The position numbers were made by a program, and so were the translations under genes. Positions 246-53,527 of a DNA stretch of 64,000 nucleotides are shown here, piece after piece; positions within the stretch are counted from its first letter, which is position 1, and every line of letters starts with the position of its first letter. Below the pieces are notes generated by a model. That model made no database searches and was not told the DNA's origin. It saw only the letters and a program-made list of their open reading frames with translations. The stretch spans positions 1,488,001-1,552,000 of the forward strand of contig NZ_AP025516.1 of the NCBI RefSeq assembly GCF_023169885.1, in the 5' to 3' direction. The stretch is from Desulfofustis limnaeus (GTDB lineage: Bacteria > Desulfobacterota > Desulfobulbia > Desulfobulbales > Desulfocapsaceae).

Positions 246-321
246 TGGTGACCCCAAGGGGACTCGAACCCCTGTTCCCGGCGTGAGAGGCCGGTGTCCT
301 AGGCCACTAGACGATGGGGCC
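246..321 (-). tRNA. tRNA-Glu (anticodon CTC)
   Basis: On the minus strand the sequence starts GGCCCCATCGTCTAGTGG and folds as a cloverleaf. It has a 7-bp acceptor stem, an anticodon stem CCGGC/GCCGG around the loop CTCTCAC (anticodon CTC), and a T-arm AGGGG-TTCGAGT-CCCCT. The 3' CCA is encoded at 246-248. The gene is 76 nt. Its 3' end faces the recombinase fragment, so it is a plausible integration target. Confidence 0.96.
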
Positions 322-9116: not shown

Positions 9117-9128
9117 GGGGAGCTTGAA

Positions 9129-9271
9129 GGGAACCTTGAAAAATTGCCATTTCGCCCAATCTCATCGTTGCGCAAGAGAATTTTATCCTCGGAATATCAT
9201 GTATATGCCTGCGGTAAAATTCTCTTGCGCGCCTCGATCTTGAACGAAATTTCGAATTTTTCAAGGCCCCC
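9129..9271. repeat. Palindromic dispersed repeat, copy 1 (143 bp)
   Basis: This is a near-complete inverted repeat. The ends GGGAACCTTGAAAAATTGCC (left) and, read inward on the other strand, GGGGGCCTTGAAAAATTCGA (right) are complementary. An inner 16-bp perfect stem pairs 9170-9185 with 9215-9230. Two further copies of the same length lie at 32099-32240 and 53385-53527. No coding capacity is visible. It sits between the DUF3108 gene and purC, ending 66 nt before the purC start. In size and symmetry it resembles MITE or ERIC-type elements. Confidence 0.85.
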
Positions 9272-9337
9272 TGAAGAATATGAGATATCACATTTTTCCA
9301 GGTTCCGAAAAGGCTGGACGCAGAGGAGGAGCACACC

Positions 9338-24007: not shown

Positions 24008-24067
24008 GCCCTGTTTTTTCCACGTATCGTCTGCCGGCTTCCTGTTCCACGGGGAGCCTATCGGTCG

Positions 24068-24237
24068 CTCAGGCAGGTCTTCTGACTTCCGGTTCACTCT
24101 ACTGATTGCGCCTTCCCGGCCGGATTCGGCCAGTGACATCGTGCAACGTTCGTCCCGGTTACAGCGGCGGGCCCGTCTCCGATTCGCACGGAGTTCCCTA
24201 TTAAACCCGGTCGGTGACAGAACCGGGTACCTGAGGT
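24068..24237 (-). promoter_or_regulatory. Cobalamin riboswitch (AdoCbl class aptamer)
   Basis: On the minus strand the hallmark elements occur in order. These are GGGAACTCCGTGCGAATCGG (the conserved core), CCCGCCGCTGTAACCGGGA, then GTCACTGGCC...GGGAAGGCGC, and the terminal B12-box part GAAGTCAGAAGACCTGCC. The kissing-loop and core segments are intact. It directly precedes the terminator and the btuC-btuD-btuF-cbiL operon, so high cobalamin should switch off import and one corrin-synthesis step together. Confidence 0.95.
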
Positions 24238-24244
24238 CTTCTTT

Positions 24245-24273
24245 CTTCTACCGCCCCTGGCCCTATTTGTCAA
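24245..24273 (-). promoter_or_regulatory. Promoter for the riboswitch operon
   Basis: On the minus strand TTGACA (24273-24268), a 17-bp spacer and TAGAAG (24250-24245) lie just upstream of the aptamer. The -35 matches consensus perfectly and the -10 is moderate. Confidence 0.65.
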
Positions 24274-30920: not shown

Positions 30921-31248
30921 GACCACCTCTAAACGGCTATGAAAAAAATGTGGGGTTCGTTCCCGCCGGTTTACCGGGCCGGCGGTGATAACAGGGTGTT
31001 GCTTGACCAAGTAAATCGGGCGCAGCGGGTATGGTCTTTATATCGGCAGCTTCCGGAAAAACTATAGCCCGGTTGCGCCGGAACCACGAAAACCGCCGGT
31101 GGCCGATGGTGCCTCCGGTACGTGAGCGATACTTCGCGTTGCTCCGGGGGGCAACAGCACTTATGATGTAGACTGGCCGGCCGGTATCCTCCGCCCGGGT
31201 GAGTGGCCGCAAGAGGCTGCCTTTTGTTGTATGGTGCAAGGATGTCCG
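30921..31248. other. Noncoding gap of 328 bp between divergent genes
   Basis: No coding frame is convincing. A small hairpin GTTGC/GCAAC (31138-31155) and a C/G-rich stretch are present. The start region of the following gene carries AAGGA. No clear promoter was picked. Confidence 0.4.
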
Positions 31249-32109
31249 ATGCTTGATCTTCACCTTCACTCCACGTTCAGTGACGGTACCTACCGCCCGC
31301 GGGGACTGGTGGAGCTGGCGCGGCAGCGTCAGCTGCAACTCGTTGCCGTGACCGATCACGACACCGTTGACGGCACCGCCGAAGCCATGGCTGCCGGCCG
31401 GCGCTTCGGGGTGCGGGTATTGTCCGGGCTCGAGTTGAGCGTGTACTGGCAGTCCTACCATTTTCATCTGCTTGCTTACGACTTCAACTGGCAGGACAGG
31501 AATTTGTGCAGCGGCTTACAAGAGTTGCAGGACGCTCGTGAGCAGCGCAACAAGAAGATCGTGCAGATCTTGGCGGGCCTTGGCATCGCCATCGACTACG
31601 ACGAGGTGCGCACCATCTCCGCCGACGGCCAAACCGGTCGACCGCATATCGCCCGGTTGCTCGTCGGCAAAAAGGTGGTGGCGTCCATCGATCAAGCCTT
31701 CGAGCGGTACCTGCGCCGCGGGGGCTGTGCCTACGTGCCGCGCTTCCTCTATACGGTGAACCAAGCCATCGCTTTGATTCACGGCGCCGGCGGGGTTGCC
31801 GTGTTGGCCCATCCGGGGCAGCTGGCGTTGCCGCTGGACGAACTGGAGCATCTGGTGGGCGCTTTAAAGGAGTGTGGGCTGGACGGCATCGAGACCTTCT
31901 ATCCCACCCAGAAGGGCAAACAACTGCGGCAATTACGGGCGTTGGCCCACCACTTTCAATTGCTGGAGACGGGGGGAAGCGATTATCATGGCGATCTCAG
32001 ACCCGGGACCGGGATGGCCGGTGGCCCCCAGTTCAGCATTCCCGGCGAGGTGTTTCTTGGCCTGCAGCACCGATGGAACGGAGCTCATCACGACATAAGG
32101 GAACCGTGA
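31249..32109 (+). CDS. PHP-domain phosphoesterase (RNase AM/YciV-like)
   Basis: This 286-residue PHP protein has all metal-binding motifs: HLHSTFSDGTYRP at the N-terminus, AVTDHDTVDG, GLELSV, LAHPGQ and GGSDYHGDLRPG. The family includes YciV-type enzymes that act on nucleoside 3',5'-bisphosphates and RNA ends. The start at 31249 follows AAGGA at 6 nt. An ATG 18 nt earlier is less likely. The final codons (REP, stop) lie inside repeat copy 2, so insertion of that element probably replaced the original C-terminus. Confidence 0.88.
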   Translation: MLDLHLHSTFSDGTYRPRGLVELARQRQLQLVAVTDHDTVDGTAEAMAAGRRFGVRVLSGLELSVYWQSYHFHLLAYDFNWQDRNLCSGLQELQDAREQRNKKIVQILAGLGIAIDYDEVRTISADGQTGRPHIARLLVGKKVVASIDQAFERYLRRGGCAYVPRFLYTVNQAIALIHGAGGVAVLAHPGQLALPLDELEHLVGALKECGLDGIETFYPTQKGKQLRQLRALAHHFQLLETGGSDYHGDLRPGTGMAGGPQFSIPGEVFLGLQHRWNGAHHDIREP

Positions 32110-32240
32110 AAAGTGCCATTTCGCCTAATCTCATCGTTGCGCAATCACCTTTTGTCCTCGGAATATCATGTATATGCCTGTGGTAAAAGGTCCGTGCATG
32201 CCTCGATCTTGAATGAAATTTCGAATTTTTCAAGCTCCCC
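32099..32240. repeat. Palindromic dispersed repeat, copy 2 (142 bp)
   Basis: This is the same element as 9129-9271. It begins GGGAACCGTGAAAAGTGCC and ends CAAGCTCCCC. Compared with copy 1, the inner stem differs on both arms in a way that keeps pairing (ACCTTTTG with TAAAAGGT). It overlaps the last codons and stop of the PHP gene and ends 21 nt before the start of the NtrC-type regulator. Confidence 0.85.
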
Positions 32241-32260
32241 ATAAAAAGGATGGATGACTG

Positions 32261-53341: not shown

Positions 53342-53384
53342 ACTTTTATTATAGCAAGGTGTCACGGTATCGGCACGGATAAAG

Positions 53385-53527
53385 AGTACCCTGAAAAAAT
53401 GCCATCTCGCCCAATCTCATCGTTGCGCAACCACCTGTTATCCTCTGAATAGTATCTAAATGCCTGCGGTAATCTTTGTTCGGGGCGCCTCCATCTCGAA
53501 CGAGGTCTCGAACTTCTCAAGCTTCTC
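53385..53527. repeat. Palindromic dispersed repeat, copy 3 (143 bp, diverged)
   Basis: This has the same length and block order as copies 1 and 2, including CTCATCGTTGCGCAA near the left arm and ATGCCTGCGGTAA on the right. The inner stem has more mismatches and the outer arm reads CTCGAACTTCTCAAGC, so this copy looks older or decaying. It lies about 100 bp before the promoter at 53628. Confidence 0.75.

Follow-up and report, generated by a model that had tools for sequence, protein, structure and literature searches.

The 64,000-nucleotide stretch of Desulfofustis limnaeus DNA analysed here (the window) carries three dispersed copies of a palindromic element, as proposed in the initial annotation, and a search at E values up to 1 returned these three as the sole members of the repeat family (D1) within the window. 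Copy 1 (9129-9271, forward strand; 143 bp) occupies the spacer that separates a DUF3108 gene from a SAICAR synthetase gene, starting 12 bp past the stop codon of the upstream gene, and is bracketed by a TGAA target duplication (9125-9128 on the left, 9272-9275 on the right). Its left terminal inverted repeat, an IS5-type end, spans 9129-9145 and has its counterpart at 9255-9271 on the reverse strand; between them, the central part of the core, TTTTATCC...GGTAAAA (9181-9219, forward strand), is the stretch that is most conserved across genomes. Copy 2 (32099-32240, forward strand; 142 bp) lies at the 3' end of a PHP-domain gene and upstream of a sigma-54 response regulator gene, between ATAA duplications at 32095-32098 and 32241-32244; the reading frame of the PHP-domain gene (31231-32109) now terminates within this copy. 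Copy 3 (53384-53527, forward strand) is old and decayed, its duplication degraded to TAAA on one side and AAAA on the other; the end that had been assigned to it stands, but its start moves one base to the left of 53385. Elsewhere in the window are a cobalamin riboswitch (24055-24249, reverse strand; Rfam RF00174, 120 bits) and a tRNA-Glu gene (246-321, reverse strand).

All three copies had been described as folding on themselves almost end to end. This is true of copy 1, which forms a near-perfect end-to-end hairpin (folding z of -8.3 on the forward and -10.7 on the reverse strand), but was overstated for the other two: copy 2 folds weakly (z of -1.8 and -2.1 on the two strands), and copy 3 folds no better than shuffled sequence (z of +1.05 and +0.91). 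The perfection of the copy 1 stem is due in part to a private two-base change. Compared with its nearest sister, copy 1 differs at positions 48 and 49 only, and both changes bring the left arm into match with the right arm; GA at these positions is present in one of 94 aligned copies of the same genome, namely copy 1, and TC in 71. The compensatory differences noted between copies 1 and 2 exist as three adjacent inner-stem pairs that are changed on both sides and are still Watson-Crick (two A-T to C-G and one G-C to A-T), but copy 2 lacks the next three pairs outward.

The family is far larger than its representation in the window. A DNA search of the D. limnaeus genome, with 40 of 122 candidates scored, returned 55 rows that correspond to at least 40 places, and a covariance model built from 32 copies returned 131 rows, from which 29 same-place, opposite-strand rows were removed. 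The element thus occupies at least 102 distinct places in its own genome, a number that is a lower bound because 150 of 1,397 candidates were scored in the covariance-model search. At 93 of the 102 places its length is 141-145 bp, and copy 1, with its 143 bp, contains no transposase gene. Exact 4-bp target duplications flank 39 of the 102 places, compared with a mean of 2.5 and a maximum of 7 in 1000 permutations, and exact duplications of 5 to 8 bp were found at none of them; the 39 duplicated targets are 85% A+T, as opposed to 41% for the window. Among 94 copies of 139-146 bp, those with an exact duplication are closer to the consensus (identity 0.917, n=37) than those without one (0.865, n=57). 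The copy 2 site, in turn, is empty in a same-genus genome (G001), one site in one genome: the flanking genes are separated there by 38 bases, the length of the D. limnaeus spacer minus the element and its duplication, and the joined flanks score 122 against 73 for the occupied version, with the target bases themselves having diverged. In 10 other genomes, the empty form of this site fits better in 2, the occupied form in 2, and the two are equal in 6. Both the target duplications and the empty site that the initial annotation had proposed looking for are present.

According to a simple codon-usage gene caller, 87 of the 102 copies sit between predicted ORFs, and of the 57 neighbouring genes with their stop towards a copy, 18 terminate no more than 9 bp away. 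Among the 63 copies with both neighbours called, the 4 orientations of the neighbouring genes are represented 19, 17, 14, and 13 times, with no clear preference. The genome also holds two 43-bp derivatives (3828854-3828896 and 1184174-1184216) that retain little beyond the two ends, the core being gone, and the former is flanked by a perfect TTAA duplication; loss of the core after insertion explains this duplicated derivative equally well. Two further end matches, at 2837577 and 2273170, were considered as IS ends and rejected, as they are truncated copies.

The same genome harbours a resident insertion sequence with matching ends. A 1,334-bp IS that adjoins one element copy shares the outer ends of the element and encodes a 337-aa protein recognised as an IS5-family transposase (NF033581, 280 bits, cut-off 140). 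This transposase has 20 protein matches in the genome (17 identical, two others at 98% and 93% identity, and one fragment), of which 19 are near-full; the nearest is located about 3.6 kb to the left of the window, and near-full matches are found in 18 other places. Both IS ends, GGGNNCCTTGAAWAAT, were found at 18 of the 20 loci, one of which is a 2,676-bp span over two copies, and 13 loci of the resident IS display an exact 4-bp duplication. At one location (about 3100689-3102169; L030:1501-2981), an element and an IS5-family IS are inserted 4 bp apart, both with TTAA duplications. Given its 4-bp duplications, the empty copy 2 site, and a resident IS with the same terminal inverted repeats, the element, about 141-143 bp long, is identified as a non-autonomous transposable element (MITE), as the initial annotation had suggested among its readings. 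Because the outer ends and the 4-bp duplications match those of the resident IS, the IS5-family transposase is likely to be the mobiliser of the element in this genome, judging from sequence.

Only about 17 bp at each end is clearly similar to the IS. Beyond this, 19 of 20 comparisons between element arms and IS ends (ten arm/IS-end pairs per arm) were no better than shuffles, at least 49 of 300 shuffles being as good, and the remaining comparison was marginal (13 of 300). For the resident IS5-family ends, 57-261 of 300 shuffles were as good over the first and last 80 bp, so that derivation of the element from the resident IS by simple internal deletion is not supported.

The element is widespread in the phylum. 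It was detected in 44 of 58 searched relatives with a first model (E up to 0.001) and in 35 of 198 genomes sampled from across the phylum with a second model of 94 chosen copies (E up to 1e-6); both counts include D. limnaeus itself. A pattern scan of a genome collection returned at least 119 stretches; among the 80 listed, most belong to Desulfobulbus, Desulfocapsa, Desulfofustis, Desulfogranum, Desulfosarcina, Desulfobulbaceae, and unclassified Deltaproteobacteria, and one record is named Pseudomonadota. Plasmid and phage collections, each searched with one query, and viral contigs, searched with one exact pattern, yielded no match to the element.

Across these genomes, the same core recurs with other ends. 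About six end types (A-F) can be distinguished, and the core is common to all six: core identity among 94 copies is nearly as high between end types (0.743) as within them (0.776), whereas outer-end identity drops from 0.81 within to 0.52 between types, with 6 unassigned rows treated as a separate type. Autonomous elements with matching ends are available for three types, with A corresponding to the IS5, E to the IS1182, and C to the ISNCY family. The type E partner is an IS1182-family IS of Desulfosediminicola flagellatus (384 bits, cut-off 270) that adjoins two tandem elements with the same GAGGCTGTCC ends. In this array (L150:4323-6448), the IS is followed by the two elements, joined via CTAG, which suggests that insertions recur at junctions created by earlier insertions. 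The type C partners are ISNCY-family elements of 1,675-1,700 bp in Desulfosarcina widdelii, D. alkanivorans, and Desulfogranum marinum, with a partner scoring above the cut-off in 3 of 9 genomes searched; no such partner was found in one genome (G058) despite its 371 C-type end matches. The ends of these IS, GTG...ATCCA/GTCCA, were both found at 8 of 30 loci, where the duplications measure 6 bp (5 loci) or 7 bp (3 loci), and the two ends of a given IS agree with each other at only 9-12 of 16 positions. Type B is represented by degenerate IS copies only, without a matching duplication, and no partner IS was identified for types D and F; a PF01609 search for partners of types C, D, and F hit 3 of 4 genomes, and all 4 of its matches lacked matching ends.

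The ISNCY-type ends accompany a different duplication length. With ends fixed, 92 copies from 80 loci were considered, 87 of them typed: A-type copies display 4-5-bp duplications in 24 cases and 6-7-bp duplications in none, with no duplication found in 11, and C-type copies display 6-7-bp duplications in 12 cases and 4-5-bp ones in none, with no duplication found in 8 (Fisher 8e-10 for A versus C). Duplications of 4-5 bp flank 8 of 15 B-type copies, an exact 4-bp duplication only 1 of 9 E-type copies, and a 6-bp duplication 1 of 6 D-type copies; the two F-type copies have none. A looser search with movable ends returned some apparent 5-6-bp duplications for A-type copies and one of 4 bp for a C-type copy, off-type lengths that arise because terminal bases can enter the repeat.

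Mapped on a tree of the core (108 columns, with many forks unsupported), the end types require at least 18 changes, compared with a minimum possible of 5 and a shuffled mean of 41.5, and, judged by the starred branches, A and C must each have changed at least 4 times. A single genome holds more than one end type for 8 of 39 genome name-keys, some of which may split one genome. Both ends could be typed in 86 of 94 elements, and none of these is a hybrid; by eye, the A and B ends include mosaic intermediates. Full-length copies measure about 141 bp whatever their end type, in an alignment that took only copies of about 138-146 bp. One MAG (L193:1450-1590, L180, L163, L265) contains a diverged core lineage of which three copies have B-like ends and one has C-type ends with a 6-bp duplication; this is a candidate for a recent end switch within a genome.

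Across genomes, the inner stem covaries strongly. With the ends excluded, 96.0% of inner cells are paired, compared with 83.5% after shuffling, and 15 of the 19 inner pairs have changed on both sides; the covariation score of 0.339, against 0.104 for shuffled data, was reached in 0 of 500 shuffles, and slid registers gave at most 0.083. On visual inspection, two irregularities of the stem are conserved and always face the same way: an internal loop (TC against TGC) and an A-G mismatch. By contrast, copies that reside in the D. limnaeus genome decay nearly as if neutral. Their divergence is uncorrelated with cross-genome conservation (rho -0.07, p 0.39), apart from a slight difference in old copies between the columns of highest (0.158) and lowest (0.186) conservation, and old copies keep 68.6% of their inner pairs, where 67.0% is expected under independent decay. 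At paired positions, 820 one-sided changes break a pair and 66 two-sided changes keep it. At mismatched pairs, pairing is restored by 148 of 359 one-sided changes where one third would be expected (p 0.001), a weak signal of arm restoration because C-to-T changes account for much of it, and 9 of 12 adjacent double changes have one allele that pairs at both positions and another that pairs at neither, only 2 of these 9 being pairing gains in the copy examined. Nothing in the inserted copies points to a function of their own; they decay, and a locus-level role is not supported. The earlier proposal that the folded form is selected for, or mechanistically retained, is borne out for the lineage that propagates across genomes, as seen in its covariation, but not for the individual copies inserted in this genome; we read this as selection acting on what propagates and not on the copies sitting in the chromosome.

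Our preferred reading, to which we assign a probability of about 0.7, is that the element is a MITE with a hairpin core that is kept by selection on propagation and that borrows the ends of several transposases, two of its end types matching, respectively, IS1182 and ISNCY elements in other genomes of the phylum. We infer that the palindromic core is retained because it helps the element to propagate. The short DNA might fold via its palindrome so that its two ends meet or, alternatively, the core might bind a host factor, and the mobilising transposase would be set by whichever ends are carried at the time. A new end gained on one arm could be copied to the other through template switching between the arms, a process that would homogenise the arms, hold the length constant, and change both ends together; once inserted, copies decay. 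Template switching at inverted repeats has been described in yeast (PMC8604942). The broader generalisation, that this is a phylum-wide selfish DNA with a conserved DNA-level hairpin core, which has repeatedly changed transposase by swapping both terminal repeats and amounts to a DNA-based bacterial equivalent of the conserved SINE domains and their interchangeable tails, stands in our estimate at even odds.

Several observations sit uneasily with the preferred reading: the core-less 43-bp derivatives, one with a perfect TTAA duplication, the small number of type C partners, the rarity of E-type duplications, the lack of a partner for types D and F and of intact ones for type B, the shortness of the core tree with its unsupported forks, the strand asymmetry of A-C and G-T states at the outer ends, the slightly lower divergence of old copies at the most conserved columns, and the ten genomes with no clear preference at the copy 2 site. 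Moreover, the three partner families are related, as the IS5 protein is also picked up by the IS1182 and ISNCY models, and part of the end diversity could stem from slow co-divergence with one transposase superfamily. A rival that fits this cross-scoring is an ordinary MITE family, an ancient IS-derived miniature the ends of which slowly co-diverged with a single superfamily, with core conservation reflecting recent interspecies spread rather than function. The near-neutral decay of resident copies, the clustering of end types on the core tree (18 changes rather than 41.5), and the mosaic A and B ends would all be at home in this scenario. However, it leaves the two-sided covariation of the inner stem far above shuffles, the repeated changes forced on the starred branches for both A and C, the coexistence of end types in 8 of 39 name-keys, and the core that beyond 17 bp has no clear similarity to the tested IS ends without a ready account, and we regard it as rather unlikely. 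Slightly better placed, although still doubtful, is a stronger and overlapping form of the preferred reading, in which the module that actually drives propagation is the core, for instance as a single-stranded hairpin to which a protein or host factor binds, the ends of DDE transposases being a replaceable vehicle. The persistence of one core and one length of about 141 bp under every end type speaks for such a module, as does the constant polarity of the internal loop and the A-G mismatch; however, no protein is linked to the core, duplications follow the ends and not the core, and the plasmid, phage, and viral collections, with one query or pattern each, gave no match.

The structured RNA offered in the initial annotation fares worse. 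A structured RNA or regulatory hairpin that is kept because it serves the host wherever it sits, as a terminator, mRNA stabiliser, or small RNA, and that spread as a mobile element could be invoked for the strong hairpin of copy 1, the family-wide covariation with its conserved asymmetric loop, and the location of 87 of 102 copies between predicted ORFs. Yet the inner pairs include 19 G-T and 25 A-C cells, and because the two are about equal, neither strand stands out as RNA. The outer ends show a strand asymmetry, with 61 A-C and 31 G-T cells. Old copies lose pairs at the rate expected by chance, the neighbouring genes of the 63 copies show no clear orientation preference, and known RNA families can be set aside, as no Rfam match at the element reached the gathering score (best sub-threshold match 21.6 bits versus 80). 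We therefore consider this explanation highly improbable; what the strong covariation records is probably selection on the propagation of DNA and not on an RNA, and the case serves as a caution for RNA discovery by covariation.

MITEs are usually regarded as arising by deletion from, and as bound to, a single parent IS. The present core has no clear similarity to the tested IS ends and persists across a phylum in combination with ends matching at least three transposase families, and what maintains a MITE core becomes a directly testable question. Our searches of open-licence papers turned up none that we recognised as a description of the element, an earlier record being possible in the multicopy-sequence tables of Geobacter and Pelobacter genomes. 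IS5-family derived MITEs are similarly short and numerous and likewise share terminal inverted repeats and duplications with a resident IS; unlike in those, only about 17 bp per end is clearly IS-like here, and the interior is an independently conserved, covarying core that is also found under the ends of other families. Another known system with an evident likeness is ERIC (enterobacterial repetitive intergenic consensus), an imperfect palindrome of a length similar to that of the element. ERIC is also intergenic and present in many copies, and a review places copies in E. coli. The ERIC-like identity suggested earlier is not supported, as blastn (E up to 1) found no match to the element in 20,395 E. 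coli records, and, in contrast to ERIC, partner transposases and target duplications are identified here. The Chunjie MITE of Geobacter uraniireducens folds, in likeness to the element. According to a review, it too is a many-copy MITE with inverted ends and direct repeats, set apart by a length of 178-235 bp as opposed to 141-143 bp. REP/REPIN sequences, associated with RAYT (Y1) transposases, are palindromes dispersed in bacterial genomes as well, but the partners of the present element are DDE-type IS, and target duplications are present. SINEs and MER6 are eukaryotic, and SINEs are RNA-mediated; the element differs from them in being bacterial and DNA-level, with palindromic arms and varied terminal repeats. 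Nevertheless, a conserved internal domain carried by different mobilisers is reported for SINEs with highly conserved domains and for a DNA MITE that one of these domains entered, MER6 with its V domain (PMC6887750). The MITE is the nearest known kind to the element, and the conserved domain of some SINEs, one internal domain under different mobilisers, is the closest idea.
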